Source of the DNA: Congeria kusceri
Lineage: Eukaryota; Mollusca; Bivalvia; Myida; Dreissenidae
Assembly (NCBI GenBank): GCA_027627225.1
Contig: CM051034.1
Span: 14,933,480 to 14,997,479 of the forward strand
DNA: 64,000 nucleotides
Direction: 5' to 3'
Shown: one piece after another, positions 9,075-31,950 of the stretch
How positions within the stretch are numbered: position 1 is the first letter of the stretch
How the letters are laid out: every line of letters starts with the position of its first letter
The notes under the pieces: model-generated
Database searches by the model: none
What the model was told of the DNA's origin: nothing
The model's input: the letters and a program-made list of their open reading frames with translations, nothing else
Position numbers and translations under genes: made by a program

Positions 9075-10016
9075 GGTTTTTGCAACAATAACATTTTTTT
9101 CACTCTTTTCGAAATAAGTCTGATACAATTAGGAATTTTTTGTTGTGAAATCTTGCAATTTGGGAAAAATTTAAGAAGGTTACTTAATTTAAACATTACT
9201 GAAACTAGAAGCTAGTGTTACATTTAGTCGAATAAATCAGACGTGCAACGAATTTAGTGCTACTTTTTATATGGGGCTAAATCTCTGCAAACATTGCCCA
9301 TATAATAAAAAGTATCTCAATGTTTGCGTAGGGCTTACACGTATTGCTAGTATTATATTGATTGAATTTAGTATTTTATGTTCTTTTAGCTTAAACCATA
9401 CATGTAATTTCGTAATTTACAACTTTTCTAATTGCTATATATTTCTAATGCAATAAGGATTTTGTCACTTTTTTTCATTCCTATTGGGGATAAGTTCTGC
9501 TCTATCCTTGAAATGCTTTAAAAAATGCCTGTATCAATTAAGACAGTAATCTGGAACACCAATCAGGGTCCTCTGTCTGCCATTTTTACGACCGAAGTCC
9601 CACTGCTTTTCAGCCGAACAGGATATCATATGTTTGCCCAGAAAATAGCGCATTAAAATAATGCTTTATTTGTTGTATAACATTATTTTGTGATCTTGTC
9701 TACTAAAATATGATGCCTAATTTAAATTGCATATATGTTCAGATAGTCAGTCTGGTTTCTGTATGCACAATTATTCTAAGGTATCTCGTTCCTTTTCTGA
9801 AAGCATCTGAACATGTATTGACCTGAAAAATACTGGTAAATTACATGTAATTGGTTTGGCTGATTTTATGAAGACGAGGAGTGCCCGGCCAAAAACATTT
9901 GATTGAATAAGGCACAAATCATGCTTAAATCTGATGGAATTTTTGTGAACTCTTAGGAAGTATAAATGTGGTCTTCTTCCTTGATTTGAGTCTCTATGTG
10001 CTAAATGTACTAAACT
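9075..10016. other. Intergenic, upstream of the PC-esterase gene
   Basis: No coding signal. Contains an imperfect inverted repeat at about 9261-9330 (TACTTTTTATATGGG against CCCATATAATAAAAAGTA, with nested GCAAACATTG arms). The promoter of the downstream gene may lie here, but no convincing TATA or initiator could be assigned. Confidence 0.4.
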
Positions 10017-10322
10017 TTTTCTAGGTTCTAGCAGTACTCGGTACGGAAGTTGTTATTTAAAGTTTAAGGCTATAAACCTTTTCTAGGTTCTAGTAGTACT
10101 CGGTACGGAAGTTGTTATTTAAAGTTTAAGGCTATAAACCTTTTCTAGGTTCTAGTAGTACTCGGTACGGAAGTTGTTATTTAAAGTTTAAGGCTATAAA
10201 CCTTTTCTAGGTTCTAGTAGTACTCGGTACGGAAGTTGTTATTTAAAGTTTAAGGCTATAAACCTTTTCTAGGTTCTAGTAGTACTCGGTACGGAAGTTG
10301 TTATTTAAAGTTTAAGGCTATT
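10017..10322. repeat. 62-bp tandem repeat, 5 copies, just 5' of the PC-esterase start codon
   Basis: Units begin with CTAGGTTCTAG at 10021, 10083, 10145, 10207 and 10269, exactly 62 bp apart and nearly identical; the first differs by one base. The last copy stops at GGCTAT, 42 nt before the ATG at 10365. Near-identity implies recent expansion. An acceptor-like CTGTTTCAG sits between the array and the ATG, so the array probably lies in a 5'-UTR intron or the promoter. Confidence 0.9.
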
Positions 10323-10364
10323 AACACCTGTTTCAGCATTCAGGCCAGATATCGATGAAGCACA

Positions 10365-13300
10365 ATGTCGGATATATTCCTTCAAGAGGATATTACTTCA
10401 CTCCTTGACAACCGCTTCATAGTGATCATTGGGGATTCAAGTAAGAGACATTATATAAATACATGTATCATAGGCATGTTGAGGGGTATAGTAAATATTG
10501 CATCCCGAGTAGAGTTACGTCAACCGAGGCCGAGTTTGACATTACTCTTCGACGGGGGCAATATTTACTATACCCCTCAATATGCCAATGATATTTATTT
10601 TATTATATCGAAAACATAGCGTAATTCAAAGAACAGACTAGTTGTACATATTAAACAAAGGTTTATTATTGCACTCATCAACTTTGATTTTTTAAATACA
10701 TTTAAATAAGCTCCTACCGATCATTAGCTTGTGCGGATTTCTCGTAAAACACGAGTTGTTATTTTTAGGCACAATTGCGCAGGGTATATTTTGATTAACG
10801 CGCAGGGTAGATTGACAATTAAACCCCGCTTGGGGTACATTAATTTCCAACGCCATGGCATATTTCAATTATGCACGTACGGGTATATGGGATTTTAAAA
10901 ACTTCGCTCAAATGTTTAGGTCATTGAGACGATGTGCAGAAGGCATGAGTCAGTCACGCCGGCTCAAGGTCAAGGTCACACTTGAAGGTCAAATATTCGA
11001 GCCTCCATTTCGTGTCCGCTCCATATCTCCTATGGCTTTTGAAGGATTTTCTTGAAACTTGGCTCAAATGTTTAGGTCTTTGAGACGATGTGCAGAAGGC
11101 ATGAGTTAGTCATGCCGGCTCAAGGTCAAGGTCACACTTGAAGGTCAAATATTTGAGCCTCCATTTCGTGTCCACTCCATATTTCCTATGCCTTTTGAAG
11201 GATTTTCATGAAACTTGGCTCAAATGTTTAGGTCATTGAGACAATGTGCAGAAGGCATGGGCCTTTCATGCCAGCTCAAGGTCAAGGTCACACTTGAAGG
11301 TGAAATGTTTGAGCCTCCATTTTCGTATCCGTTTTTCGTGTCCGCTCCATATTCCCTATACCCTTTGAAGGATTTTCATGAAACTTGGCTCAAATGTTTT
11401 GCTTATTGAGACCATGTGCAGAAGGCATAAGCCAGTCATGCCAACTCAAGGTCAAGGTCGCACTTGAAGGTTGAATGTTTGAGCCTGTAGTTTCCGTTCC
11501 TATATCTCCTTTGCCCTTTAAAGGATTTTCATGAAACTTGCCTCAAATGTTTATCACATTGAGGCAGTGTGCAGAGGGCATGAGGCAGTCACGCCACCTC
11601 AGGGTCAAGGTCACACTTGAAGGTCAGATGTTTGAGCCTCCATTTTTGTGTCTGCTCCATATCTCCTATGCCCTTTGAAGAATTTTCATAAAACTTGGCT
11701 CAAATAATTATCACATTGAGGCGATGTGCAGTAGGCATGGAGCAGTTTTGCCACCTCAAGGTCAAGGTCACACTTAAAGGTAAAATGTTTGAGCCTCCAT
11801 TTTATCGCGTCAGCTCCATATCTACATTTCTGAAACTGTACTTTCATATCTGGTCCAACTGTGCCAGATTAAGGTCAGTGTGATACTTCAAGTTACCTTT
11901 AAAATCTAATGAAGGATCATGGCGGGGGATATACCTGTCCTTTCGACTGCCTTGTCACACAGGCGATGTATCTGTGCCGATTGTTACAGTCCAGAGAGCC
12001 ATCTACAAAGACCTGGTGTTGCTTCTGCAGAAGAATCGATACCTGACTGACTCTCAACTTCGGTCCAAGGTACATCATGTTTTAGAATTTGATTTGGATT
12101 AACTAAGCTTCTTGTGTATGACCTTCGAAAAAATGTACAAAGCCTAGTCTGCTTGGTAATTAAGACCATCAATTTTAAACCTGGTTTGGTGTTGCAGGGG
12201 GAGTTAACCTTCTCAGGTGACAAGTTGATTGAAGGTGGTCAGTATGGAGAAATGACCAATGGTGTCCGGTGAGTTGCTACTTATTAATGCATGTATTCAA
12301 CATTGAATCAATAAAACCCAGTTTTCTTTTCATTACTGGTATAAAACAGAGGCATTTTATAGGCTTCGTACACGAGCAAAACTTATTGTGTGATGAAATG
12401 ATGATTTCATCTTCTGGAACTTTCTGTTTGTCTTTAAAACAATTGTTCTATTATTTTCCCATTATCACATTCCTGGGCCCCTTTACGCTGAAAGAAAGCC
12501 TTGTTAAAACATACCAATTGAGGTTTGTTACTTGTGCAATAAGTAAGTTTATCATCAACCACTCACCTGTATGTCACTTTTATACAACTTCACTTTTATA
12601 CAATTCCTGCTGTGGCCTAGTGGTTCGGGCGTTCGCCTACGGACCGAGCGGTTGCTGGCTCAAGCCCCATCTGCAACATACTAAAGTCGTTAAAAATTTT
12701 ACTGGTAGCGCTCCCTCCCATGCGCTCTGCATTTGAGGGTAATTCCAGGACTGTCGGCCCTGTGTCAGGATAGTGTCAGTTGGTGTGGTATCATATCAAA
12801 AGTGTCCACGGTATAATATCATAATGGAGGCAGCACTATAAAATGCTTCAAGTGGACGCCATGAGACAGAAAAATTGTTGGTGGGACATAAAACAATCAA
12901 ACAAACGAACAAAGTAAACAAACAAAATACAATTCCTGCTTCTATAAAGCAGAATACTTAAGCGGAATTTCCAATAAATTATTATTTATAGCCAAATTGT
13001 TTGTTTTACATGTAAGATCTAGAACCTAATCCAAACAATTTTTCACAGATCAAGTACCTGTGAAGCAACCGCCTTTATAAGAAACTGACAATTTTGATAA
13101 ACCAGTAATATTTGCCATACTTCTGAATCTCAGCTACCGAGAAGTTCGGCAGTATCAGACAGATTTCCATCTTGTGAGGTTCTATTTCGTGACGAGATGC
13201 TACAATGCGTACATGGAGTCCATTTTGATGGACCTTTCAAAGGACCCTCGACCTGATGTCATCCTCATGAACTCCTGCCTCTGGGACATCAGTCGGTATG

Positions 13301-16300
13301 TCAATGGCATTTTTGAATAAAACACATAAATGTCCATCAAATTATGCAGCTTTTTCCAAGAGTTTACAATACACCTGGATGTTTTGCTCATCTGAAAAAA
13401 CAGCCCTGACTGGTCTCCACATGATTGTTCATGTATTATTTCTTTGGCATTTAAGATTTATTTCCCTTAGTTCATCCATAATTTCTGTGACATTTATCTC
13501 CCTTTGTTTATTATTTCCGTGAATACTGTGATATTTACCTCTCTTTGTCCTCAGCTATGGCCCCAGATCTGTGGACCAGTACAAGGAAAATCTGGAGACG
13601 CTGTTCAAACGGTTTAAGGAAGTCCTGCCTGAATCGTGCCTCGTTGTATGGAACATGACCCTTCCTATCTCAAAGAAGGCACGAGGCGGGTTTCTCATCC
13701 CACAGGTGACCAAAGATATTTATCACATACATGTATTCTCGTTAATGGTACTTTAAAAGGTTTGTTGTTTAATTTGGCTTTATTTGCGATAATATGGAAA
13801 TTGATCAATTAGCATGTTGGGGATCTTTCCTTGACAGCAGTGAGACCAATGGCTAGCCAAAGGATTTAAATAGTTTGAGACTGAAAAAGCCAATAAAAAA
13901 CATCTGCAAACTGCTTGGTGTAATGGAACTTTGTACATGAGAAACTAGGATATTCATTTATTATCGATACTCTTTTAACTTGAGAAGTCATACTTTGCCC
14001 TGCTTGTTCTTGAAAAATATCCTTACTTTCTCCCTACTTTTTGATCAAGTGGCAAGCCTGTATGGTCATTAAGGGATCAAGTGGCAAGCCTGTATGGTCA
14101 TTAAGGGATCAAGTGGCAAGCCTGTATGGTCATTAAGGGATCAAGTGGCAAGCCTGTATGTTCATTAAGGGATCAAGTGGCAAGCCTGTATGGTCATTAA
14201 GGGAAAGATCCAGAGCAAAAAAGCATGTTGCTGCACCCTGCTCCATTTTAGCTGCACCCTCTGGGCTGGATAGAAATGTTGAATATCTTTTGAATTTCAA
14301 TACAGTTTTGCAGATATTCCATCGGAAATGAATAGGCTATGTTTAAAAACCCAAATTAGAGGCCTTTAAGTTATAAAATCCCTGGATTTACAAATTTATT
14401 AGAAACGTCAACAAAGTGGCCAGCTTTCCCCCCTGCTCCTTTTGATCAGCACCGTGTACCTTTCTTGGTCCTGGATCTTTCCATACATTTATATGTAAAG
14501 CCATTCCTGAAGTAGGACCAGTGTAGGCATGCCATGTTGGAGATTGGAACAAGTAATGAACAGCTCTTCATACAAGGCCATTCAACATTAAAATCAGTTC
14601 TCAAGATTTCTCTCAGCTTTAAATTTATAGGTACATACAACTTCAGTTATGTTTTATCCAGCAACTTTTTTAATAACGTGACCAAAGTTTAATTAAGAGA
14701 AAAAGAGCCAAAAAAAATGTAAGTAATCTGACATGAACTTAAGAGCTTATGACTTTGATTCTGTATCACCAACTTCCAAGTGACTAGCAAGTGTTTTTTT
14801 AGGGCCAATTTGGGGCCGAAATTCAGCCCTATTCCCCTACTTAAAAAGTATATATTTTTCCCCTATATTTACCTTAACATTCCCCTCAGAATGTAAGCTT
14901 TAGTTTTGAAAAAAATTGACCAAAATCGGACAAAAATTGACTAAGATTAAGGAATTTTAGTAAACAATCCCAGCAAATTTTCATCAAACCAAGTTAGTGC
15001 TTAATCTATGTTATAATTTGTAGCAAAACAATTCAATAATTTATGTTTTATAACAAAGTAGAATATAAACATGTAATAAAGCTTTTTGAAAAAAATCCCT
15101 TTTGCCGTCAAATTCCCCATCTCGTTCTGAAGGGCCCTGCCACATTTCCCCCCAAAGGTGAAAAAAAAACAATGCTAACTTGACAAGGTTCTTTATAAAT
15201 ATTGCTCATGTGCATGCCAACTATTGTGCAATTGTTTTGTTTGCATTTTCAGGTGGAGTACATGAACAGTTCATTGCGACTTGATATCCTTGAGGCAAAT
15301 TTCTATGTACACAAGGTACTGTAAAATCGTTTAATTTCGTGGTGGTCTAATTTTCGCGTATTTCATGGTCCAAACAAAGCGCAAATTTAAGACACTGCGT
15401 AAAAGTTACTTTTGCTAAATTATTAAAAATTTATACATGAAAATGAAAAATGCGCAAATTTAAGACTGCGCGAATAAGCCGTTTTTCGAGAATGCACGAA
15501 ATTTAGACATCGCGAAATAAAACGATTTTACATTAATATGTGAAGTGTACCTGATGCCTATTTGCATAAGTTTTAGTGTGGTTTAATTTATTTTAGTGTG
15601 ATCATGTTGATTATTGTAAGACATTTTTATTTACATTATTAATGAGCATGGGTTTACAGTTTTAAATGGCACATTTTGGGATTTGACCTGGTTTTTAAAA
15701 TTGGAAAAATCACTGAAACTTGTAATAAATTTTCCTCGGTTAAAGTTTTAAACAAATTTCTCGAATGATTAATTCCTGGATCTTGGGAGTCCTGGTTTTC
15801 AGTTTATTTAATTGCCAATAATGAATATAGTATTTTAACGCTCAATAAATAAATGTGCTTTGAATCGTTTGACACCAGTGAAATTGTTGCTCAAAGTACT
15901 ACGTATGTTTGTTGACTTACAGCTAGCTCTGATGAGCGGTGTCAACACCCTGGATCTTCACTACTTCCTGCGCCATCAGCTACAGAGGAGAGCAGGTGAC
16001 CTGTCATTCCTGTTGTAGCTGCATTTAATGCGATATTTGCGCATAAAATTGAGAAAATTCGCGAAGAAATGTTCACCTATGCGATTTTACGTTGCACCGA
16101 AATTGTTCAGTACGAATTTAAAAGTGCTGCCATACAATACTAAATGCTCAGTCTTGTTTGCAGTTTTGTAAAAAATATGCGGTGAGATTTTATCTTTAAA
16201 ATTAATTCCGCAGTCTAAACAAAAAAATCAACAGACGCTCAATACACCTTAAATGGGAAGCGCAAGTGCTGCATGGTGTATTTTTCTCGATTTAAACAGA

Positions 16301-19300
16301 CGTTCACAAAATGTAATTGCTGTAAATCCCATAAAAACCAGAGGAAATCACATAGATCTTTGAAAAAGCCCATAGATTTTTGTGGAGATGAGAAATTATC
16401 ACATTTGGAAAAATCCGTCACTGTAGCTGTAGATTTTTTGATCACATTGTCATACATGCATTGACAAAATAAAACCTTGTTGAATAAAAATTGCTTTCTT
16501 TTAACACTTAGGGAAGAAACATGTTCAATCTTATGCCATCAGTTTGTTAATTTTCCTGACAACATTTTATGGTTTTTCTTGTTAGTTTTCTTTTGTTTAT
16601 TTCCAAAATTAAGACATAAATGATAAAATACTAGGTAAGTGTTTAGTAATGAAAAGTGTATGAGTGTAGTTGAGTGTCAGTACTTCAATCCCCTGGTTCA
16701 ATACCTGTAGATACATGTGTGTATCAACTATGAAAATATTTAAAAAGTTTTACGTGTTTACTTTAAATGTTTATTTCATAAGTAAAATACACTTCAATAA
16801 GGATAGATAGTCTCTGCATGCCAATAAAAAATTTGTATAAAATTAAAAGCATGATTATACAGTATTATAACGCAGTATGTGACCACATTCAGGAGATGGA
16901 GTCCATTGGGATATGACTGCACACAGGCGGATAACCAACCTGATCCTCACCCACATAGGCCAGGCCTGGGATGTGAAACCACCAAATCACGCCCACAGTG
17001 TTCTCTCCCTGGTAAGTGACTGTACCAAACCACGCCCACAGTGTTCTCTCCCTGGTAAGTGAATGTACCAAACCACGCCCACAGTGTTCTCTCCCTGGAA
17101 AGTGACTGTACTGAACCATGCCCACAGTGTTCTCTCCCTGGTAAGTGACTGTACCAAACCACGCCCACAGTGTTCTCTTCCTGGTAAGTGACTGTACCAA
17201 ACCGCGCCCACAGTGCTCTCTCCATGGTAAGTGACTGTACGGAATCACACCCACAGTGCTCTCTTCATGGTAAGTGACTGTACCGAACCACGCCCACAGT
17301 GTTCTCTCCCTGGAAAGTGACTGTACTGAACCACGCCCACAGTGTTCTCTCCCTGGTAAGGGACTGTACTGAACCACGCCCACAGTGTTCTCTCCCTGGT
17401 AAGTGACTGTACCAAACCACGCCCACAGTGTTCTCTTCCTGGTAAGTGACTGTACCAAACCACGCCCACAGTGCTGTCTCCATGGTAAGTGACTGTACGG
17501 AATCACGCCCACAGTGCTCTCTCCATGGTAAGTGACTGTACAGAATCACGCCCACAGTGTTCTCTCCCTGGTAAGTGACTGTACTGAACCACGCCCACAG
17601 TGTTCTCTCCATGGTAAGTGACTGTACTGAACCACGCCCACAGTGTTCTCTTCCTGGTAAGTGACTGTACCAAACCATGCCCACAGTGCTGTCTCCATGG
17701 TAAGTGACTGTACCAAACCACGCCCACAGTGCTGTCTCCATGGTAAGTGACTGTACCAAACCACGCCCACAGTGTTCTCTCCCTGGTAAGTGACTGTACC
17801 AAACCACGCCCACAGTGCTGTATCCATGGTAAGTGACTGTACGGAATCACGCCCACAGTGCTCTCTCCATGGTAAGTGACTGTACAGAATCACGCCCAGT
17901 GTTCTCTCCCTGGTAAGTGACTGTACTGAACCACGCCCACAGTGTTCTCTCCATGGTAAGTGACTGTACTGAACCATGCCCACAGTGTTCTCTCCCTGGT
18001 AAGTGACTGTACTGAACCACGCCCACAGTGTTCTCTCCCTGGTAAGTGACTGTACCGAACCTAGTGTTTAATCTAGAAGGGCAGATGGGCATGGCGCTTG
18101 ACTTGGAAAAAGGGCATTTTGTGCGCGGTAACACTGTTAATAAGGGCATATCAGGTTGTTGTTTTGTTTTGTTTTCCTGAAGTAATAGTTCAAACCAGTT
18201 ATGAAATTGTATATTACTGACTGATTTATTTTATCTGCTTAGTGATTTTTTTCAAGTCAAACAAGTACATGTATTAACAAATTTTAGTTTTCCAATAGTA
18301 TTGCTTTTTATTCTTTTTAAGTTATATTGTTGTTGCAATATTTATTTCAGAAAATTTACCTATTCATTGTTCAGAAGTATTTCCAATGTGCAAATTGGGC
18401 AATCATACATGAAAAACTTATTAACAACTGTCAAACTAAAACTGTTTATGGGCATGTCAAAATCATGCTTATTAAATTAAATGATAACATACTTATAAGT
18501 TCTAACCGTGCTATTATTTATATATTTTTTTTATTTTTATATTGAAGGATATATTTGCATTTTCACCTTCATTTGTTATAAATTGTTGCTGTTGATGATG
18601 ACATTGCTACGAATATTTTGATAAATAATGAAAACTTAAATCAAGATAGAAAATTTTGCAACAAACTTTGCAATTTGGATTGAAATGATGTATCCGAATA
18701 TATTTGTCCGAATTCATAGGTCTGCAATTCGTTTTTTTCAGGGACTTTTGCTTATGATTGGAAAAAATATTGTATAAACATGTTTTCTTTTTCATAATTA
18801 ATTATTCAAAACCAAATTGAGTCTGCATTTATATGCATTCTGTCATTTATTATTTCGTTTATCATAAAATTTGACTAAACAAAAACATAGAAATTGCATA
18901 TGAAAATGAAGCTGCTAAAAGCAGGCAATTTACGCTCATTTTCAAATCAAATTCAGTATGTTTTATTGTATCTGGACACAAACTCGTAAGCTGATTGCAC
19001 CTACAGCTGATCTTATCAGTTGGTGACAGATTAATATACCATAACATGCCATCACAAAAGGCCCTCGTAAAGGGCAATACAGTCATTAGATAAGAGGGCA
19101 CCCAGCGCTAATTGCCTTTGAAATGGGCAGGGTGGCAGATCAATGAAAGGGCGTGGCACGGCGCCACACTGATTAGGTCTGGATAAAACACTAGAACCAC
19201 GCCCACAGTGCTCTCTCCCTGGTAAGTGACTTCCAAACCACGCCCACAGTGTTCTCTGCCTGGTAAGTGACTGTACCGAACCACGCCCACAGTGTTCTCT

Positions 19301-22300
19301 CCATGGTAAGTGACTGTACCAAACCACAGTGTTCTCTCCCTGGTAAGTGACTATACGGAACCACGCCCACAGTGTTCTCTCCCTGGTAAGTGACTGTACC
19401 GAACCATGCCCACAGTGTTCTCTCCCTAGTAAGTGATTGTACGGAACCACGCCCACAGTGTTCTCTCCATGGTAAGTGACTGTACCGAACCACGTCCACA
19501 GTGTTCTCTCCCTGGTAAGTGACTATACCAAACCTCAGTGTTCTCTCCCTGGTAAGTGACTATACCAAACCACAGTGTTCTCTCCCTGGTAAGTGACTGT
19601 ACCGAACCACGCCCACAGTGTTCTCTCCTTAATAAGTGACTATACGGAACCACGCCCTCAGTGTTCTCTCCCTGGTAAGTGACTATACCGAACCACGCCC
19701 ACAGTGTTCTCTCCCTGGTAAGTGACTATACGAAACCATGCCCACAGTGTTCTCTCCCTGGTAAGTGACTGTACCTAACCACGCCAACAGTGCTCTCTCC
19801 ATGGTAAGTGACTGTACCGAACCACAGTGTTCTCTCCCTGGTAAGTGACTATACGGAACCACGCCCACAGTGTTCTGTCCCTTGTAAGTGACTATATGGA
19901 ACCACGCCCACAATGTTCTCTCCCTAATAAGCGACTATACGGAACCAGGCCCACAGTGTTCTCTTTCTGGTAAGTGACTATTAGGAACCACGCCTACAGT
20001 GTTCTATCCCTGGTAAGTGACTATACGAACCACGCCCACAGTGTTCTGTCCATGGTAAGTGACTATACGGAACCACGCCCACAGTGTTCTCTCCCTGGTA
20101 AGTGACTATACTGAACCACACCCACAGTGCTCTCTCCATGGTAAGTGACTATATGAAACCACGCCCACAGTGTTCTCGCCCTGGTAAGTGACTATACGAA
20201 ACCACGCCCACAGTGTTCTCTTCCTTATAAGTGACTATACGGAACCATGCCCACAGTGTTCTCTCCCTGATAAGTGACTATACGGAACCACGCCCAAAGT
20301 GTTCTCTTCCTTGTAAGTGACTATACGGAACCACGCCCACAGTGTTCTCTCCCTGATAAGTGACTATACGGAACCACACCCACAGTGTTCTCTCCTTGGT
20401 AAGTGACTATACGGAACCACGCCCACAGTGCTCTCTCCATGGTAAGTGACTGTACCGAACCGTGTCCACAGTGTTCTCTCCCTGGTAAGTGACTGTATGG
20501 AACCATGCCCACAGTGTTCTTTCCCAGGTAAGTGACTATACGGAACAACGCCTAAGTGTTCTCTCCCTGGTAAGTGACTATACCGAACCACGCCCACAGT
20601 GCTGTCTCCATGGTAAGTGACTGTACGGAACCACGCCCACAGTGTTCTCTCCCTGGTAAGTGACTATATCGAACCACACCCACAGTGCTCTCTCCATGAT
20701 AAGTTACTATACGGAACCACGCCCACGGTGTTCTCTCCATGGTAAGTGACTATACGAAACCAAGCCCACAGTGCTTTCTCCATGGTAAGTGACTGTACCG
20801 AACCACGACAACAGTGCTCTCTCCATGGTAAGTGACTGTACAGAACCACGCCCACAGCGTTCTGCCCGGGTAAGTGACTGTACGGAACCAAGCCAACAGT
20901 GTTCTCTCCCTGGTAAGTGACTACCGAACCACGCCCACAGTGCTCTCTGCATGGTAAGTGACTATATGGAACCACACCCACAGTGTTCTCTCAAAGGTAA
21001 GTGACCGAGTCGAGGAAAATATCTAGGATAAAAAAACCTATAGAGCGCTGCTGAAAAAGAACAGGGATGGAAGAAGCTGGACCAGTTCTTTACCGTTTTC
21101 CTATACTTTGGTGGTTTTTCCTGGGGTTTTATTAGTCCAATGCTTTAATTTCGGTTTTGAGGTGCTTACGCATATTTCAGTTATACATGTCATTAAATAT
21201 TTGCACAAATATAGTGAATTTCAACGTATATTCAACTTCTCTTTGTTGACCAGCCCAGAAGGGCAGCAAGGAGAACCAAAAAGAAGCAGGCTGCAGCAGC
21301 CTACTATTTTGCCCTTGGTCTTTCTCTTACTTAGTCAAATTATACATTTTATTAGTCTAATGCTTCTCATTAAGGTTTTTGTACACACTTTGTTCATTTG
21401 TCATTATGTATGTGCAAAAATATATTGAAATCAAAAGATATCCAACTTTTCTGTGTTGACAAGCACAGAGGAGCAACAGGGGGAGGGAGGGGGGGGGGGG
21501 GCCAAAATAGATCAGAGTACAGCATGCTGCCATTTGGCTCTACAATGTAGATCTTTCCCCAACTCAGCCAAACCCAAGAATCAGGCTATATTTTGATTAA
21601 AATGAATGCACAGTTTAAGTGATTGTGGTTGAGTGATCTCAGAACTGAGCAGTTACATTATTTTATTTTGTATTTATTTTGTTAATAAATGATCAAATGA
21701 CCATGTATCATTCTTGTCTCAGTTTTAACCAATTTGGCTTTGATATGCATCAAGTACTTGTAATCATCTACAAAGTTTAAGTTTATTAAAATGTATAGTT
21801 AATTTAACTATACATTTTTATAAACTTAAACTTTGTAAAGTTAATTAAGTGTAACTTTATTAATAAAATTTTGTGTGCATACATGTTTCTGTTCGTTTGG
21901 AAAACTAAAGGTCATTGTAAAAGAAAAATGTGTTAATTTTTGCAGAAACAACCTTCCATTGACAATGAAAAACCAAATGTCCAACATGCTGATGAGAATT
22001 TCAACTTTAGACGTGGTACACAAGCCTTATCGAACGTGAATATCAACAATATGAACAATCAGAACATGAACATGAGACCAGTACCCGTGTCCAGCCAAAT
22101 CAAAATCAACATCGCCAACAACTTTGGGAACCGGACCGGGTCACAGGGGCAGCTGTTACCAACCAATCAGCTGTGGAACGAAAATAATGCCCAAAGGCTC
22201 AATCAACAAACAGGCTTGCAATTTGGACCAGGAGGAAACAATTTTGATTTTCATCCACAAGAGTTTGGCAGAAACTTGAACCTTGATATTAATCTTAACA

Positions 22301-22551
22301 AGTACGGAGAGCCAATGGATGAAGATCAAGCAGGGAACATATCACGATACGGTGGCCCGATAAGGAATTTCAACTTTCAAGGCACGGCGATGCCTGGGTT
22401 GCTAGGACAGAACCCTTTCCGGGGCGATCAGTTGGACTGGACGCCCTACAGGAACGAGGATTTCAGGGGTCAGTGGTTGGGTCAGAATGCAGGGAACCAA
22501 GGACCGGAACGTGCGAGGAACCAACCGTATGGCAGACGTCTCCGACATTAG
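10365..22551 (+). CDS. PCED1A: PC-esterase domain-containing protein (PCED1A/B family), 9 exons
   Basis: Coding exons are 10365-10440, 11990-12069, 12198-12268, 13134-13295, 13555-13705, 15253-15315, 15923-15995, 16893-17011 and 21946-22551. All phases agree, and 1401 nt give 466 residues, close to the roughly 450 of vertebrate PCED1A. The family is an SGNH/GDSL-type hydrolase fold related to acyltransferases; its substrate is poorly known. Visible landmarks are the nucleophile motif GDS ([16 protein letters not shown], about residues 20-35), the family block [11 protein letters not shown] in exons 4/5, VWNMTLPI in exon 5, and the Asp/His pair in DGVHWD at the exon 7/8 junction. These are the expected catalytic elements, so activity is plausible. 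The C-terminal exon is a low-complexity Asn/Gln/Gly-rich tail ending GRRLRH. The start ATG is chosen because [18 protein letters not shown] aligns with the family N-terminus. There is no signal peptide. Oddities are the minisatellite made of the exon 8 donor (intron 8) and a MITE abutting the exon 6 donor. Confidence 0.93.
10479..10580. repeat. Hairpin element 39 nt after the exon 1 donor
   Basis: TTGAGGGGTATAGTAAATATTG at the left is matched by its reverse complement at the right (CAATATTTACTATACCCCTCAA), continuing through a CCCGAGTAGAG/CTCTTCGACGGG pair. The right arm recurs at about 27090-27140, so this is a dispersed family. Confidence 0.7.
10880..11880. repeat. About 156-bp tandem repeat, 6 copies, with AGGTCA words
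   Basis: The CTCAAGGTCAAGGTCACACTT block recurs at 10963, 11119, 11275, 11445, 11598 and 11755. Each unit also carries GAAACTTGGCTCAAATGTTT and GATGTGCAGAAGGCATG. Copies have diverged moderately. TCAAGGTCA matches the extended half-site bound by ERR/NR5A-type nuclear receptors, but such words are common in this repeat class. The array lies in intron 1 of the PC-esterase gene. Confidence 0.85.
12611..12926 (+). mobile_element. tRNA-derived SINE with 13-bp target duplication
   Basis: The tRNA-like head has an A-box-like TGGCCTAGTGG and a degenerate B box (GGCTCAAGCCC). The tail ends in AAAC/AAACG repeats. ATACAATTCCTGC flanks it on both sides (12598-12610 and 12927-12939). It lies in intron 3 of the PC-esterase gene. 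Confidence 0.85.
14043..14202. repeat. 32-bp tandem repeat, 5 copies
   Basis: The unit starts GATCAAGTGGCAAGCCTG at 14043, 14075, 14107, 14139 and 14171 with almost no divergence. The last unit runs straight into the MITE at 14202. Confidence 0.9.
14202..14482. mobile_element. MITE with GGAAAGATCCAG inverted ends
   Basis: GGAAAGATCCAG at the left and CTGGATCTTTCC at the right are perfect inverted repeats. Subterminal CTGCTCC/GATCAGCACC blocks match the element at 8179-8585, which carries the minisatellite-expanded form. It lies in intron 5 of the PC-esterase gene. Confidence 0.75.
14790..15175. mobile_element. hAT-like MITE, copy 2 (inverted relative to 8704-9074)
   Basis: Begins AAGTGTTTTTTTAGGGCC and ends AAAAAAAACAATG. 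Internal blocks are the reverse complement of copy 1. No coding capacity. It lies in intron 5. Confidence 0.6.
15320..15532. mobile_element. MITE abutting the exon 6 splice donor
   Basis: TGTAAAATCGTTTAATTTCG at the left and CGAAATAAAACGATTTTACA at the right are inverted ends. It starts at intron position +5 of the exon 6 donor (AAG/GTAC, then element), so the element supplies the donor from +5 on. The interior contains further CGCGAA and GCGCAAATTTAAGAC words in inverted and direct copies. Confidence 0.75.
15996..16892 (+). other. Intron 7 of the PC-esterase gene
   Basis: AT-rich intron without recognised elements. Several GCGAA/TTCGC words near 16040-16090 resemble the MITE at 15320 but no ends could be set. 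Confidence 0.5.
16988..18060 (+). repeat. 43-bp minisatellite built from the exon 8 end and its 5' splice site, part 1 (25 units)
   Basis: The unit CACGCCCACAGTGTTCTCTC + CCTG/GTAAGTGACTGTACCAAAC recurs every 43 bp. The first unit is the real 3' end of exon 8 (through 17011) and the start of intron 8. I count 25 units, of which about 22 keep GTAAGTGA intact (exceptions include GAAAGTGA at 17096 and 17311 and GTAAGGGA at 17354). Units fall into sub-variants (CTCTCCCTGG, CTCTTCCTGG, CTGTCTCCATGG). The minus strand has no stop in any frame of the unit, which makes long artefactual reading frames. Confidence 0.95.
18061..19194 (-). mobile_element. 1.13 kb inverted-repeat element, copy A, inserted in the minisatellite
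   Basis: Ends CTAGTGTTTAATCTAGA and TCTGGATAAAACACTAG are inverted. The flanking AAC is duplicated (18058-18060 and 19195-19197), a 3-bp target duplication that restores the 43-bp unit when the element is removed. It is homologous to copy B at 23512-24566 in the opposite orientation. A frame-like stretch is shared by both copies on the strand read right to left here (about 18880-19190) but shows no known domain. Superfamily not assigned. Confidence 0.85.
19195..21007 (+). repeat. 43-bp splice-donor minisatellite, part 2 (about 42 units)
   Basis: Continuation of the array across the transposon insertion. Units here more often read GTAAGTGACTATACGGAAC and are more varied, including shortened units lacking CACGCCC (near 19325, 19535, 19570 and 19825). 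The last unit reads CTCTCAAAGGTAAGTGACCGAG. GTAAGTGA is again kept in most units. Confidence 0.93.
21105..21480. repeat. Diverged direct duplication, about 210 bp period
   Basis: The block from about 21105 to 21290 (TTTTATTAGTCCAATGCTT ... TTGACCAGCCCAGAAGGGCAGCAAGG) recurs with divergence at about 21330-21480 (TTTTATTAGTCTAATGCTT ... TTGACAAGCACAGAGGAGCAACAGG). A G-rich run follows at 21480-21501. It lies in intron 8. Confidence 0.6.
21770..21836. repeat. 32-bp-arm palindrome in intron 8
   Basis: Left arm ACAAAGTTTAAGTTTATTAA... is mirrored by ...TTATAAACTTAAACTTTGT with about one mismatch and a 3-nt centre. It ends 110 nt before the last exon of the PC-esterase gene. Confidence 0.85.
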
Positions 22552-22567
22552 TGATGGCTCAGAGGTC

Positions 22568-23184
22568 TGGAGCCATATTCCAGAAACATCTTAAGTTTAC
22601 CTTAAACTATTTTCACTTTAAGTTCTGACTTTTGTAAGGTAATATTTTTTAAACTGCATATAAGGCGTACAAAAAAAATGTTTGTTTCAGGTAACCCCAC
22701 CTACCCTAAAAAAATGCCCCGACCCTAGAACATTTTATTGGGGTTGTCAGATTGATTTTTGTTTTATTTACCTTTTTCAATAATTAAATGTGTTTTGGAT
22801 AAATAAGTGTTTTGTTTTGATAGGATCCACTTATAAACAATATTTAAGGATATTACTGATATGTTTTGAATATTTATTCAGTTTTCGAATCTTCAAGTTG
22901 ACCATTTAAAAAATAAAATAAAAAAAATAAAAAATCCCAACCTACCTACCCTAATTTTTTGGGGCATGTTACCTGAAACAAACATATTTTTTTTATGCCT
23001 AAATTAGTGCATCTAATTACAAATATGTAAGTACTAAATAGACGTTAATGATAAGTTGATACGATAATCAGTAAACACAAAAAAGAATCTCTTGTATACA
23101 TAGACTAAATGCTAAAGAAAGTATGCAATTGTATGGCTAAAGATAAGATTTTACTAAAGATGTTTCTGGAATACGGTACGACCC
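22568..23184. mobile_element. MITE in the PC-esterase 3' flank, hosting a nested MITE
   Basis: Ends GGAGCCATATTCCAGAAAC-ATCTTAAG and GATGTTTCTGGAATACGGTAC are inverted. The left end starts 17 nt after the TAG stop at 22549-22551, so the 3' UTR is probably MITE-derived. Confidence 0.65.
22661..23001. mobile_element. Nested MITE
   Basis: TAAGGCGTACAAAAAAAATG then TTTGTTTCAGGTAAC at the left is inverted at the right as GTTACCTGAAACAAACAT then TTTTTTTTATGCCTA. Subterminal CCTACCCTAA words are present. It sits inside the element at 22568-23184. Confidence 0.65.
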
Positions 23185-24900
23185 CAGTTTATAATGTGCT
23201 GCTCTATGTGTGTATATAGTTGAAAGTTTGCGCTGTTCCGGTGGAATAGTTCAAGCATTAGTATAGTGTCAGAACAGTGTTCTGAGTTTATGAAACATTG
23301 CTCAATGTGTGTAAAGTTTGTGTCTCATCGGTGGAATCATTCAAGCATTAGTATATAGACAGGTCAGAGTTCTGGGTTTATGAAACATTGTTCAATGTGT
23401 GTGAAATTTAAAGTATGCGCCATACAATCATTCAAAGATTAATTAATATAGTGTCAAATCAGAGCTCTGAGTTTCTTTGCGTGTTGTGTGTATTGTTGAT
23501 AAAAGCTGTACCTAGTGTTTTATCCAGACCACGTCCTTTTATTGATCCGCCACCCTGCCCTTTTCAAAGGCAATTAACGCCCAGTACCTCTTATCTAACA
23601 ACGACTGTATTGCCCTTAACGAGGGCCCTTTGTGATGGCATGTTACGGTATATTAATCTGTCACCAACTTATAAGATCAGCTTCAGGGGCTGTCAGCTTA
23701 CGAGTTTGTGTAGGGATACTATAAAACATGCCGATTTTGTTTTAAAAATGAGCGTACATTGTCTGCTTTTAGCAGCCTCGTTCCCACATGCAATTTCTAT
23801 CATGTTTTGTTTCGTCAATTTTTTATGATGAACATGATAACAAATGGCATAATGCATATAAATGTAGACTAAATGAGGTCTTTAACCATTAATTATGAAA
23901 AAAAACAACATGATATATATGTGTATTATTTCGGACAAACATATTCAGATACATCATTTTAATCCAAATTGCAATGTTTGTTTTTAACATTTTCAACTTG
24001 ATTTTAGTTTTCATCATTAATCAAAGTATTAGTAGCAATGTCATCATAAACAGCAACAACATATAAACCATAAAGGTAAAAAAAACCCAAATATTTCCTA
24101 CAATAAAAAAGGTAAAAAATATATATAATACCAGGTTAGAACTTACAAGTATTTTACCATTAATAAGCATGATTTTGACTTGCCAATAAAAAGTTTTAGT
24201 TTGACAGTTGTTAATACGTTTTTCATGTATGATTGCCCAATTTGCATCTTGGAACTACTTCTGAACAATGAATAAATAAGTTTTCTGAAATAAATAATGC
24301 AACTGTAATATAATAACTAAACAATAATAAAAAGCAATAATATTGGAAAATTAAAATTTGTAAATCCTTGTTTGACTTGAAAAATCTTTAAGCAGATAAA
24401 ATGTATTAGTCAGTAATATACAATTTCCTAATTGGTTTTAACTATTGCTTCAGGAAAACAACCACTAAAACCTGATATGCCCTTATTAACAGTGTCACCG
24501 CGCACAAAATGCCCTTTTTTCCAAGTCAAGCGCCATGCCCGTCTGCCCTTCTAGATTAAACATTAGTACCGTTAGAATCATTCTAGCATTAGTTTAGTGA
24601 CATCAAAGTTCCGAGTTTATGGTACACTGCTTAATGTGTGTATAGTACTGTACATCTTTCAAGCATTTAATTTTGGACTGGTCAGTTTCTTACACATTGC
24701 TGAATTTGTGTACTTTAAAGTATGCGCCATAGTCAAACATGTATATAATGACAGATCAGAGTTTTGAGTTTATGAAACACTGCTCAATATGTGTATAGTT
24801 TAAAGTGTGCGCCATACAATCATTTACATCATACAAATATTTATATGGTTCAGATCAGAGTTCTGAGTTTATGAAACACTGTGTGTATTGTTGGTATAAG
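23185..24900. repeat. Diverged 85-100-bp tandem repeat, interrupted by a transposon
   Basis: The motif GTTTATGAAACATTGCTCAATGTGTGT followed by GCGCCATACAATCATTCAAGCATTAGTATAGTG and TCAGAGTTCTGA recurs before (23190-23510) and after (24570-24900) the element at 23512-24566. Copies start near 23190, 23287, 23375, 24617, 24770 and 24853. Confidence 0.75.
23512..24566 (+). mobile_element. 1.06 kb inverted-repeat element, copy B (inverted sister of 18061-19194)
   Basis: Starts CTAGTGTTTTATCCAGACC and ends CTAGATTAAACATTAG, with a 3-bp target duplication TAC (23509-23511, 24567-24569). The sequence is homologous throughout to copy A, reversed. As with copy A it landed in a tandem repeat; both insertion contexts contain TGTACC. 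Confidence 0.85.
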
Positions 24901-24990
24901 CCATACCGGTGAAGTCATTACAGCATAGAAAATAGCTAAGTTAAGCGGACATGGTGACCTTTTATAGTTTCTAGTTCCATTGTAGATTTT

Positions 24991-25686
24991 TGTGTCGCCT
25001 GACTAGGCGACATATAGGGGTTACTTATATCGGCAGCGGTGGCGGCGGTGTCCCCTTTCGCTTGTCCGGAGCATAACTTAGACTATTAAAGCTATCAGCA
25101 TGAAACTTCATAGGTAGATAGATCTCATTGAGGGGAAGTGCATTGCACAAGAACCGTTACTCTGCACCTCATACTTTTGGAGCTATTGCCCTTTGTTTAT
25201 TTTCATACTTAATTTTTGTCCGGAGCATAACTCTAAGACTATGAAAGCTATCAACTTGAAACTTCATAGGTAGAAAGATCTCGTTGAGGAGAAGTGCAGT
25301 GCACAAGAACCGTTACTCTGCATCACATACTTTGGAGTTATTGCCCTTTGTTTATTTTCATACTTAAAATTTTTGTCTGGAGCATAACTCTAAGACTATG
25401 AAACTATCAACTTGAAACTTCAGTGGCAAATAGATCTCATTGAGGAGAAGTGCATTGCACAAGAACCATTACTCTGCACCTCATACTTTTGGAGTTATTG
25501 CCCTTTGTAAATTTTCATACTTATTTTTGTGTCGCATTTTTGGTTTTAATAAGTCTTTTATTTGCAATTAGCTAGAGTGCAGTGCTTTTGAAGATTTCAA
25601 TTAATCTGTTAAAAAAAAAATTGAGCATTAACCTTAAGTGCTTCTTCATTTGGATTCAAGTAAGCTATCCGGCGTCAGGCGACACA
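24991..25686. mobile_element. Composite MITE with three internal 160-bp repeats
   Basis: TGTGTCGCCTGACTAGGCGACA at the left and GGCGTCAGGCGACACA at the right form the ends. Inside, a block beginning GTCCGGAGCATAACT is repeated at about 25057, 25218 and 25375, with GAAACTTCATAGGTAGA and GCACAAGAACCGTTACTCTG in each copy. Confidence 0.75.
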
Positions 25687-25989
25687 TCCGACACGCAGAG
25701 TTCTAGTTTGTCATATTTGTCACTTTCCAAAATTCTCTGACCGATGCAGAAATCTTGAGCATCTGTGTAAAAATCTTTTTGTTTTAGAATCCACTGTTTT
25801 AAGATTCAAAAATAAATTTAGCAGGAACTTCCTCTAATAGATTTCACAAAATTTTCTTTTTTTAAATATCTGAACATAAAGGGCATTGTTATGTAGTTTA
25901 CATGTGCATATAAATGTAGGTCATAAATATAGTTGACTCTGTGTATGAGTAATACGGACTTTGAGTGATGTATGGTCACTTTTATGCCC

Positions 25990-26390
25990 CCACTTTCAGG
26001 GTGAGGACATGTAGATCTGCCCTTGTCATTCTGTCTGTCCTGTCCTTCCGTCGGATTTTTATGTCACATTTAACTTTAAAAGTGTAACTGCTAGAGTGAA
26101 GAAACTTTATAAACATATTCAATAGCATGTGAACTTGAGCACCTTGGTATTTTGGTGCAGTTTTTTTCCGACATTAGCAGAGTTAAGGCCCTTTTTTTAT
26201 AAAAAGATATTTTTGGACTTGTGTCGCGTCTAACTAAAAAATTAGAACTGCTAGAGTGATTAAACTTTATAAATATATTCATCAGCATGTAAACTTGTGC
26301 ACCTGGTATAGTAATTGCATAGGGTTTGGTGACAAACAGCGGAATGTTTGGGCACCTGTGTCCTTTGGACACATGTCTAGTTTATTATTA
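25990..26390. mobile_element. Repeat element beginning ATGCCCCCACTTTC, with internal duplication
   Basis: Starts TTTATGCCCCCACTTTCAGG and ends GGACACATGTCTAG. The core GAACTGCTAGAGTGATTAAACTTTATAAATATATTC occurs twice, diverged. The start/end style is shared with 26400-26835. Confidence 0.5.
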
Positions 26391-26399
26391 TAGCGCATT

Positions 26400-26835
26400 T
26401 TTTATGCCCCCGGCATGTTGATGCTGGAGGCTTATAGTGATTTTCCTGTCTGTCCTTCCTTCCGTCTGTGACGAGGTTAAGTAGATTTTACAGTTTTGTC
26501 TAGCACCAACACTGCTTACTACAACACTTGGATACTTACACATTTGTTGCTAATGACCATTCCCTTTCCACCCATATCACCCAACCTCACTTTGACCTTT
26601 ACCTAATTTGGACTTCTAATAATTCAAAAGTGCCATTTCTTGGTTAACTAGATTTTACCGTTTTGTCTAGCACCAACATCGCTTACTATAACACTTGGAT
26701 ATTAACACATTTGTTACTTATGACCGTTCCCAATCCACCCATATAACCCAATCTCACTTTGACCTTGACCTAATTTGGACTAAGAAATGGGCTATCCAGC
26801 AACAACGGGGGACATGTGTGTTTATCAAACACAGA
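26400..26835. mobile_element. Repeat element beginning ATGCCCCCGGCATG, with internal duplication
   Basis: Begins TTTTATGCCCCCGGCATG and ends GACATGTGTGTTTATCAAAC-ACAGAATCTAG. The interior holds two copies of a GTTAAGTAGATTTTACAGTTTTGTCTAGCACC block, 26475-26600 and 26640-26790. Confidence 0.55.
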
Positions 26836-27515
26836 ATCTAGTTTTCCGTTGTAAAATCCCATATACCTGTCCCTGTATAATTTTTAATATGCCATTGCGT
26901 TGGAATGTGCGTGGGCCTAAACAATGCATCTGGTGTTTTCTGAGAATTCCCTATTAGATAATGATCGTTAGGCGCTTACTAAAACGTCAGTGACGATGAG
27001 CGCATGATTTATGTGTGTGACGTCAGATATTGATACAAAATAGCTACTGGTGTATTCTGGGAATACTGGGGACCTGTTTATTTCGGCCTTGGTTGACATC
27101 ACTCTTCTCGGGTTGCAATATTTACTATAGCCCTCAACTGCCTATGATATTTATATTATAATTATGTACTCTGTTTAAGTGTTTGTTGTATTCAACAAAA
27201 ATTGATCTGTACAGTTTAAAAACATTTCCACTGAATGTTTCTCTGTTTAGTGCTTGACAAGGAATGTACAAGTATGGGTGTGCAAATTGCTTAAATCCAG
27301 TTTAAAGTTTTATTTGACTGTCTTTCACAAAAGGTTGTGACGTTTTACCTGATTATAGTTGCAATGTTATCGCAGGTTGTTTGTAAATAATTTTGTTCAG
27401 AATGTTTTGTTTTTATATTTGTAACTTAGGAGTATATCATGATACTTATACCAAATTGAGATTGTTTCATGCTGAAACCAAATATATTTTTATAGATGTG
27501 TATTTTAGATCGCCA
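26836..27515. other. Intergenic, no gene; contains one arm of the 10479 hairpin family
   Basis: At about 27090-27140 the words CTCTTCTCGGG, TTGCAATATTTACTATAG and CCCTCAA match the right arm of the hairpin at 10479-10580. Otherwise nothing was recognised. Confidence 0.5.
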
Positions 27516-27665
27516 GGCCAGGCTAGCTCAGTTGGTAGAGCACTGGACTCACAATCCAGGGTTCTTGAGTTCGAGCCCCAGCCCGGCCACATAACTTGTG
27601 TGGGGATTGGTTATGAAATAATTTCTATGGCCATTCTCCCCTACCGCAAAAAAACAAAACTGTTT
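27516..27665 (+). mobile_element. tRNA-derived SINE, short copy
   Basis: The tRNA-like head GGCCAGGCTAGCTCAGTTGG has a foldable cloverleaf (anticodon stem CTGGA/TCCAG, loop CTCACAA, which would read Val-CAC) and a B box GAGTTCGAGCC. It continues into the same body as 39648 (ACATAACTTGTGTGGGGATT) and ends in an A-rich tail. TTTTAGATC flanks both sides as the target duplication. Not a working tRNA gene. Confidence 0.8.
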
Positions 27666-27989
27666 TTTTAGATCTTGGATGAACAGTACAATCTTGTCAG
27701 ATAACTTACCTCTAAAACTGCAAAGCTATCTAGCTACTACGTGTAGTGTGCCATTGACAGCCAGCAGAAATAACCCAATACCAACTCTAAAGGAAGACAC
27801 ATTAAATAAATATTTATTGGTGGTAAATCTATGGGCACAGTGCCGAATGCTGTGGTTATTAAACAGGTATTTGTAGGGGCCATTACTCCTGTATAGGGCA
27901 GTGTGAAATGCTACGTTTATGCTGGATTGTTTGCAGTTTATGAAAATGTGTTCAGTATGTCCTTGTGTTTACACCTAGTCCATATGAAA

Positions 27990-28235
27990 CTTGTCGTGTG
28001 AAAACCGGGCTTAATGCATGTGCATACAGTGTTGTCCCGGAATAGCCTGTGAAGTCTGCACAGGCTAATCCAGGACAGCACTTTCTGCTTTTATGGTATT
28101 TTCTGTTTCAATGTAGTTTCTTCTAAACATAAATCCACTGTAGGCAGAAAGTGCCGCCATGGATTTGCCCGTGCAGCCTGCACATGCTAATCCAGGACGA
28201 CACTTTAGGCGCATGCACTAAGATCGGATCTCCCA
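27990..28235. mobile_element. Hairpin-rich MITE (GGGCTTAATGCATG family)
   Basis: The left half carries GGGCTTAATGCATGTGC, GTGTTGTCCCGG and GTCTGCACAGGCTAATCC. The right half mirrors it with GCCTGCACATGCTAATCC, GGACGACACTTTAGGCGCATGCACTAAG. I recall this family as abundant in some bivalve genomes, from memory and unverified. Confidence 0.7.
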
Positions 28236-29034
28236 TGACACGCCTCATATATGTTGTGGTTTGTTTATTCGTTTTAAATAACATTTACTTTTGTTTTGGT
28301 TGCTCGGTATTTCTTCCTTATAGTCAGGGTGACTGAAATCCATGTGTGCTTTCTATTGTTCCAAGTGTGCTGTACTAGTTTTCAAAGCGTTTACATTTCT
28401 AACCCCAACTTTTAACATTTTTTGAAGATTCTTGTCTAATTGTTGTTACTTTTGGATTTCGTGTTCTTAAATTCTCCCTAGAATCTAATGGAAGAAGGAG
28501 CGACACGATATACATAACACAATGTTCATTTCAAGAATTTTTAAGCAGTATTAAGTATTTTAATTATCACGTGGATTCCAGGGGTGGCTTAATCTTATAT
28601 TGTTTTGCTTTTCCATTTTGGACAAGTGTTGTTTGCCACTTTTTGCAAAATCTCGCTTGGCCGTTCATGCTAAAGGGACAAGCTCGGTAATGTGGACAAG
28701 TGATTTGCCACCTCTTTTGTATATGTGTCAGCATTGTTTATTCGTTTTATGTATCTTTTGTTTGATAAACTGTTCACAATAGTTAAAAATTAAAAAAAAA
28801 TCGTTGAGATTACGGTTATGTTTAGTTATGAGCTGAAAGACTTCACAACAATCTAATGAAGATGTAATGTATACCAGTCAGCAAAGTTGCTGGAGAGTTG
28901 AAATTCTGAGCTGAACAAGCAGTTATATATGTTTCCGATGTACATGTTTGTCAGCCATAAAATGTGGGCAGTCAGCCAATATCAACTGAGATGTAATTAT
29001 GTACTCATTCACAGAATCGCATAAGGGCAACAGT
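28236..29034. other. Intergenic; distal part duplicated near 42080
   Basis: No genes. From about 28770 on, blocks such as CAATCTAATGAAGATGTAAT then TATACCAG resemble 42080-42200 (CAATCTAGTGGAGATGTAT, GCATACCAGG). This may be the outer limit of the segmental duplication that carries the macrodomain genes. Confidence 0.45.
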
Positions 29035-29282
29035 GGTATTCACAAAGCATCTTAAATAATTTCTTAAATATTTTCACTTAAGTGCAAAATTTGAATGCAT
29101 TATATTTCCTTACTTAAACAGATGCATATGTTGTTGTTATTCCTAAAATAACACTTTCATAATGATGCTATTTTAAAGTGTTGCTAAGTGCTACACTGTT
29201 TCTTTACGGCATTAAACAGTTATGAAAATTTACAAATTTAAGGATAAGGATAAACATTAACTTAAGATGCTTCGTGAATACC
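29035..29282. mobile_element. MITE with GGTATTCACAAAGCATCTTAA ends and 8-bp target duplication
   Basis: Left GGTATTCACAAAGCATCTTA and right TAAGATGCTTCGTGAATACC are inverted. Flanks GCAACAGT and GCCCCAGT are a probable diverged 8-bp duplication, as expected for hAT-type elements. Confidence 0.75.
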
Positions 29283-30894
29283 GCCCCAGTCCTCTTATGT
29301 GTCAACAATACTCTTCACAAGCTCTACCATGTACTCTTGCTTCACAGAATCGCACAAGTGCATCAATCCTCTTTTGTTTATACATTACACTTGATCAACT
29401 TTACCATGTGCTCTTGTGTCAGCTACATGCAGTACAGAAGTTAAATACGTTGTATCCAAGTGTATTTTACCGTAATTAAATTAATTTTTGGTTAACCGTT
29501 GCGCATTGGGAATTTGATTATTGTGCGCGAATTGTACCGAATATACATGTTCTTTTAATTATTTGGCTTTATAATGCGAATGCATAACCACATGTATTGT
29601 CAAATGCAATACGTTTATAAGGGCAGTAAATTACGTAAACATAACGACATGCCGCAAATTAATACTCTTACTATATACAAGAACATTACTACCGCATTTT
29701 CCTAGATGTGAAACTACGAAAACCTCAATACTACGAACAAAGCCGTGTCTCCCGTGCCTATTCATAGTATCGCGTTTCGACTTGATCACTTATTTTCATC
29801 TAGGAAGTATAGAACAAGATTCAAGTTCTACTTACCACCAATACTTACCAACAAAAAAAGGCACCTTTAACTAATTTAGGAAAAGAACAGCATGCAAGAT
29901 TTCGAGTCGCTTGAAAGACTCTTAATATGTGACAATTCCACAAATGATCGGCTTTGCATTGCTTATATAATTAAATTAATACTTGATATGACACTCAAGG
30001 AGAAAGTACATATTGTAACACATTGATAGCATTACTTGATATTTATAAAAATAATACGTAAACGACGTCTGGAAATATGTAACATAGTTTAAACGGGCAG
30101 GTGTCTGGAACTGTTTGAGCATATGCAGAGATACACATGTGCGGAAAGAGAATTCGGTATGAAGAAAGCGTTTGCCTGAAGTTTCATACGTTGTCATTAT
30201 TTTCAAAAATATACGTTTGTGCTCCTTAAGCAATTGTGAATGTCATAGTATGTAAGGCCGCTTTTCCATAGTAAATCGAACAATTTGAAAACTGTCGAAC
30301 CCTTTCCATATGTTTGCAGTCCGTATAGCGCATCCACAAAAACCGTCCTCAAACAATCGCGCAGTGAGCGACTTCATGCGGATGCAGACGACGTGGTACC
30401 TCTATAAAAGAAAGGCTTTACAGAATAAAACATTGGACAAGTAGCAGAAATTGTCCAGGAGCACCCGAATAACAAACCCTTAGACAGGCAGTTACTCTGT
30501 TATAACGGGTAACATTTGCAGAATCATGAATAATGCCATGGATACAAATGGTGGATGATTAATATTGTTCCCAATCCACCTCCTGCGAATGAATTTCCCA
30601 TACTCGCAATATACAATATTTGGAACCGAACTTATTAAACTGTTTAAATTCTTCAAACTCTTGTATATTTACTCACTAAATATAACAAAGTTAAAATATT
30701 GACGGTGAATACTGATTCATGGAAAAGCGCGTCCGTATTTAAAATCATGCGAATACGTTTACATATACGGATGCGGACATACGGATGGTATCATTCCGTC
30801 TTCATAAGAATATAGTGTACCTACAAATATATCTTCGCCATTATGAGTGGCTGTACAATCCAATTCTTGAATGGCAGTCTCTGTTGCAGTAAAT
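29283..30894. other. Intergenic upstream sequence, partly duplicated near 42.8 kb
   Basis: No gene. The block at about 29790-29960 (CATCTAGGAAGTATAGAACA ... CGAGTCGCTTGAAAGACTC) is similar to 42840-42990 (CGTCTAGGAGTACAGAACA ... AAATCGCTTGAGACAATA), i.e. the same relative place upstream of the second macrodomain gene. Confidence 0.5.
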
Positions 30895-31882: not shown

Positions 31883-31950
31883 CGCTTTCAAACTACCGAT
31901 CACTGATATATTGCTTTTTCAGATTCGTTATCAGACGAAACTATTTCACA

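Follow-up and report, generated by a model that had tools for sequence, protein, structure and literature searches.

In the 64,000-nucleotide stretch of the Congeria kusceri genome analysed here (C11:14933480-14997479, hereafter the window), a gene coding for a PC-esterase domain-containing protein 1A-like (PCED1A-like) product carries at the start of its intron 8 a tandem repeat whose 43-bp unit joins 31 bp from the end of exon 8 to the 12 bp that open intron 8, the 5′ splice site (donor) included. The array is a real, clean and long donor-bearing exon-edge minisatellite. We consider it rather probable that it represents a tandemly duplicated exon end which is tolerated, as the upstream donor tends to win under exon definition; that the array is tolerated rather than functional is the most likely interpretation.

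Structure of the array and the end of exon 8

Unit 1 occupies positions 16981..17023 of the plus strand (start given by Tandem Repeats Finder (TRF) and by the printed edges) and includes 31 exonic and 12 intronic bp, the latter opening with donor 1 (17012). TRF reported a 43-bp period at 16981-18061, with 25.2 copies and a 91% match, and again at 19194-21005, with 42.9 copies and an 85% match. A fuzzy anchor scan gave 69 matches, and exclusion of the one at 16860, inside intron 7, left 68 units, namely 25 in block 1 (16981..18061) and 43 in the more diverged block 2 (19194..21005), both on the plus strand. A GT dinucleotide is present at the donor position in 60 of these units, while GTAAGT and GTAAGTGA are each kept in 59 of 68. 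An exon-end minisatellite with its own donor, in about 65-67 copies most of which keep GTAAGTGA, had been claimed in the original prediction, and TRF, the anchor scan and the gene model bear this out, the count being close to the 68 found. The array was also placed there as one run at the start of intron 8; the 43-bp repeats are real, but they are not continuous, since a 1,132-bp element at 18062-19193 had been missed.

The inserted element (18062..19193, plus strand) has the ends TAGTGTTT...AAACACTA and is flanked by the 5-bp direct repeat GAACC. When it is removed and the flanks are rejoined, one unbroken 43-bp unit is restored, which suggests that the element arrived once the array already existed. 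A second copy lies on the opposite strand at 23529-24565, with 80.6% identity over 1,110 aligned columns, and both copies bear terminal inverted repeats.

The mean pairwise distance between units is 0.089 in block 1 and 0.123 in block 2, and the distance from unit 1 rises along the array (Spearman 0.48, with a p of 4e-5 that is optimistic, neighbouring units being non-independent). Units 4, 10 and 19 are identical to unit 1, which suggests that units were recently added or exchanged at the exon end. No higher-order repeats were detected: at none of the lags from 1 to 59 did three or more successive units each match their counterparts with one difference or fewer. Antisense to the first part of the array, the minus strand contains a stop-to-stop open frame of 218 aa (16889-17545), for which no match at E<=1 was found in protein collections among 6,222 candidates.

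The original prediction had named a dispersed satellite unrelated to the exon as the finding that would speak against it. A two-unit query against the genome (1.549 Gb, 1,071 contigs) gave 46 scored matches, all 46 of them inside the array, the only one recovered from this single assembly; these match counts are lower bounds, and very common words were skipped. The 15-mer GTAAGTGACTGTACC gave 20 matches within the array and a single one elsewhere, on another contig; with 7 genomic matches to its reversed control, this lone off-array match is expected by chance. It is scarcely credible, then, that a dispersed satellite landed at exon 8 and that the exon end was later built from it: the exon end does resemble the array, and nothing else was found in favour, but every scored match falls in the array rather than at many loci, and the exon end is a coding sequence that Dreissena polymorpha has too and that can be aligned in five more bivalve proteins. 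As far as tested, the satellite was rejected, and in this genome the unit was seen at no locus but this gene.

The protein comparisons on which the position of the exon end depends cover 7 of the 17 homologous proteins fetched, which were aligned, the other ten being judged by eye. The D. polymorpha protein P0001 reads ...QPNHAHTVLSL followed by KKPC... and aligns without gaps with the join of exons 8 and 9 (17011 / 21946, phase 0), while the partial D. polymorpha record P0002 (DPMN_098327) stops exactly at HAHTVLSL. Five further bivalve proteins (Mercenaria, Ruditapes, Mactra, Mya and P0003) align without gaps up to the end of exon 8, beyond which the protein tail is poorly conserved among the aligned homologues. 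On this protein evidence donor 1 is taken as the true end of exon 8, and the termination of P0002 at this very point suggests that the boundary predates this genome. Relative to P0001, P0002 has additional residues that include a partial YREVRQYQ repeat, which looks like a gene-model error.

Strength of the repeated donors and the outcome of their use

Donor strength was expressed as the predicted duplex energy with the 5′ end of U1, which is a proxy and not a trained splice-site scorer. Donor 1, at -9.9 kcal/mol, is the strongest of the eight donors of the gene (next -9.4), and, counting donor 1 itself, 56 of the 60 GT units reach or surpass this strength (53 equal, 3 stronger), so that the row of equal-strength U1 sites proposed earlier holds as a prediction. 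The three stronger units, identified by elimination, have CAG, AAG and CGG before GT, the AAG unit being the last one. Among 999 control GT sites on the plus strand (10441-16892 and 22552-32000) only one is at least as strong as donor 1. The check was also applied to 15 of TRF's 21 other rows, six being excluded as short or overlapping; 14 of the 15 had no such donor site on either strand and one had a single site. Given these two comparisons, the concentration of strong donors in the array is far beyond chance. Structured RNA hiding the donors was considered as well and rejected, the RNA of the first six units folding less stably than shuffled sequences (z +1.80).

The full 466-aa protein is obtained with donor 1 only among the 60 GT donors, in agreement with the earlier claim that use of any other donor would bring a frame change or a stop, since all 59 alternatives lose it. 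If donor 2 is used, a stop is met 14 nt beyond the junction. For the remaining 58 GT donors translation stops after nt 843 of the coding sequence, more than 50 nt ahead of the junction, at a TGA located inside donor 2's own GTAAGTGA (17060-17062). By length alone 21 of the 60 donors, donor 1 included, are frame-keeping, and because of this TGA the 20 others are not rescued. Under the vertebrate-type rule, a stop lying more than 50 nt before a junction leads to nonsense-mediated decay; if such a rule holds in bivalves, the RNAs from those 58 donors would be targets of decay. A protein search for the read-through peptide returned 0 candidates, and even P0002, which overlaps part of the region, was not among its results, so that this negative carries no information.

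A further reading makes each unit a micro-exon of 13 nt, for which the AG ahead of TGTTCTCTCCCTG would serve as acceptor and the donor would follow, allowing stepwise splicing or variable peptides. Although CAG is at the right place in 64 of 68 units, the AGs of the array lack a T-rich tract, the mean T content at -20..-5 being 0.10 against 0.25-0.69 for the eight acceptors of the gene model. With acceptors so weak, micro-exon units were rejected, and we regard this reading as extremely unlikely.

Known exon-edge repeats and the choice of donor

The array belongs to a known kind of variable number tandem repeat (VNTR), the donor-bearing exon-edge VNTRs of ABCA7, CBS and IFI6, and the statement in the original prediction that no VNTR of this kind had been described is consequently not correct. 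The human IFI6 minisatellite (the gene is also named 6-16 or G1P3) was reportedly, to judge by the title, the subject of a paper by Turri, Cuin and Porter in 1995. Here, too, the 5′ splice site of the adjoining exon lies within the unit (donor at 17012, GT in 60 of 68 units), and on the protein models its first copy appears to be exon 8's own donor.

In human ABCA7, as reported, the donor of exon 18 is formed by the first two nucleotides of a 25-bp VNTR with 12 to about 427 units (PMC5954066). The likeness extends to a first copy serving as the canonical donor of the exon, to a long array of repeated donors at the start of the intron, and to the effect of the next unit's donor, which retains one unit and shifts the frame (PMC5954066). 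Unlike the unit described here, that of ABCA7 is only 25 bp long, begins at the intron and is found in a vertebrate, and the polymorphic length of the ABCA7 array is tied to expression and to Alzheimer risk (PMC5954066). The human CBS VNTR, c.1444_1467+7, has a 31-bp unit in 16-21 copies (PMC2630376) and is listed as exon 13-intron 13 (PMC1395315); its name implies a unit made, as here, of an exon end and the first intron bases, although the unit is shorter, the copy number lower and the host human. For the IFI6 minisatellite two downstream units are reported to be used in splicing (PMC4526556), giving three mRNA forms, whereas here the upstream donor is expected to dominate. Intron gain by tandem genomic duplication is similar in that an in-gene tandem duplication involves splice-site sequence, but a new intron arises there, while the copies described here are inside an existing intron (PMC4974935). 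The dog LHX3 intronic 7-bp repeat was considered and set aside as a different kind, the deleted unit not being a donor in the account given (PMC3223203).

Mollusc-aimed and general searches of titles and abstract starts in the open-licence literature found no bivalve repeated-donor case, which is weak evidence of absence. Within these limited searches, what is new is the bivalve case, and a long one, and it indicates that exon-edge donor repeats of the ABCA7, CBS and IFI6 kind are not confined to human genes. The array also serves as a natural experiment in donor choice, confronting the spliceosome of a non-vertebrate animal with dozens of near-identical donors at 43-nt spacing. If donor 1 alone is used, the rule that the nearest donor across the exon is preferred under exon definition would be supported; if other donors are used, repeat length would be tied to protein output beyond human disease genes.

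In the explanation we favour, a 43-bp segment across the exon 8/intron 8 junction would have been duplicated in tandem into intron 8 and have grown to the 68 copies of this assembly, the array later being broken by the inserted element, while donor 1 would still terminate exon 8. As exon 8 is 119 nt long and is flanked by introns of 897 nt (intron 7) and 4,934 nt (intron 8), it is expected to be recognised through exon definition, which among equal donors would favour the one nearest the acceptor of the exon. Donor 1 would then be used in most of the mRNA and the array would leave as intron, and occasional use of donor 2 or a later one would add sequence and a stop, yielding either a protein truncated downstream of the esterase region or a degraded mRNA. 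We infer four parts of this account, namely the duplication history, the donor choice, the RNA fate and the near-neutrality. The supporting data come from Carranza and colleagues, whose five exon-definition minigenes each offered a pair of identical CAG/guaagu donors separated by 52 nt and were reported to splice exclusively from the upstream one (PMC9225289). By these data, donor 1 will most likely prevail, a possibility which the original prediction had allowed (PMC9225289). In ABCA7, likewise, the form retaining one VNTR unit is reported at 2 +/- 1%, constant with array length (PMC5954066).

Several observations weigh against this explanation. In genome-wide competitions between near-equal donors the upstream one is reportedly preferred in only 60%, the preference reverses under intron definition, and the exon-definition minigenes had a strong acceptor (PMC9225289), while the acceptor of exon 8 is the poorest in pyrimidines of the eight in the gene (Y 0.50, T 0.25). 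On balance donor 1 should dominate here, although its exclusive use is uncertain. With respect to the exon end, both P0001 and P0002 are gene models, and in the ten homologues judged by eye (scallops, oysters, abalone, unionids and others) the end of exon 8 is unrecognisable, and conservation thus extends to the nearer bivalves only. The gene product matched no Pfam family at 1e-3, and the gene name therefore rests on named homologues. The last of these points is found in the array itself, where the three best-kept 8-base windows of the 43 all overlap the donor (TAAGTGAC 0.897, AAGTGACT 0.882, GTAAGTGA 0.868), which could hint at constraint.

Mean column conservation across the units is 0.975 for GTAAGT, 0.926 for the exon side and 0.907 for the other columns, but a one-sided column test for selection on the donor columns gave p = 0.107, the +1 G is present in 62 of 68 units (lost in 6), which falls short of the median column, and the best-conserved 8-mer sits one base off the donor. 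For these reasons there is no convincing evidence of donor selection, though weak constraint is possible, and the special function put forward earlier is not supported.

U1 protects transcripts against premature polyadenylation, a process known as telescripting. The downstream donors might accordingly be a selected U1 platform guarding the 4.9-kb intron 8, with 56 strong predicted U1 sites in a single intron, donor 1 included, and a donor region that is the best-kept stretch of the unit. However, intron 8 contains only two AATAAA and four ATTAAA signals in its 4,934 bp, which per base is below six of the seven other introns, the remaining one, intron 2 (128 bp), having neither signal; the column test and the loss of GT in 8 of 68 units also argue against it. 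We consider such a platform very unlikely.

Alternatively, the array might be a tuner that depends on length. With more copies, wrong donors would be used more often, exon 9 would be skipped or splicing would slow down; less full-length protein would result, and copy number would act as a heritable expression dial. The loss of the full protein with each alternative GT donor is consistent with this, as are an association of ABCA7 VNTR length with lower expression and more next-exon skipping (4.1-fold in one long allele; PMC5954066) and an association of the CBS 31-bp VNTR with reduced CBS activity, as stated in the title of the paper. Against it stand the ABCA7 form retaining a unit, reported as unchanged with length (PMC5954066), and the use of the upstream of two identical donors in the five minigenes (PMC9225289). 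A tuner of this kind seems unlikely to us, if less so than the U1 platform. Nevertheless, the increase of next-exon skipping with VNTR length reported for ABCA7 (PMC5954066) offers a way for the array to matter even if the first donor wins.

A stronger form of this idea, in which the donor row is a selected or consequential regulatory device in a mollusc, with array length setting the share of donor 2 and later donors, whose products would be an esterase without the N/Q-rich tail or a degraded mRNA, and thereby forming a heritable dial of PCED1A-like output, is in our opinion improbable. If true, it would mean that donor arrays at exon edges have evolved as expression tuners separately in distantly related animals. 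Tolerance of a duplicated exon end is still the explanation we prefer.

The host gene and other features of the window

The PCED1A-like gene comprises nine plus-strand coding exons with AG or GT at every internal boundary. In the gene model, coding exons 1 to 7 are located at 10365..10440, 11990..12069, 12198..12268, 13134..13295, 13555..13705, 15253..15315 and 15923..15995. Exon 8 (16893..17011, 119 nt), ending in ...HAHSVLSL / GTAAGTGAC, was delimited by its AG/GT flanks, the open frame and the homologue alignment, and exon 9 (21946..22551, phase 0), the last coding exon found, codes for an N/Q-rich low-complexity tail. A homologue search gave 502 proteins at E<=0.001, and among the best 120 of the 502, which were examined, the closest named protein is the D. 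polymorpha PCED1A-like isoform X2, with 79% identity. The homologues carry the name PC-esterase domain-containing protein 1A-like, by which the gene was assigned. No solved structure matched the first 265 residues of the product at E<=1, and no Rfam match at the gathering threshold was obtained in 10000-26000.

Other tandem arrays in the window are located at 8367-8559 (32-bp period), 10011-10325 (62 bp), 10899-11823 (156 bp), 14043-14204 (32 bp), 33739-34440 (45/135 bp) and 58980-59485 (138 bp). The 62-bp-period array stops about 40 bp 5′ of the start codon, and the 156-bp-period array occupies much of intron 1. Intron 1 also contains, at 10480-10581, an inverted repeat, its arms measuring about 22 bp (tgaggggtatagtaaatattgc ... 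gcaatatttactatacccctca), which by eye resembles a small hairpin element. In intron 3, at 12610-12680, the sequence gtggcctagtggttcgggcgttcgcc ... ggttgctggctcaagcc was noticed by eye, which we take to resemble the head of a tRNA-derived short interspersed element.

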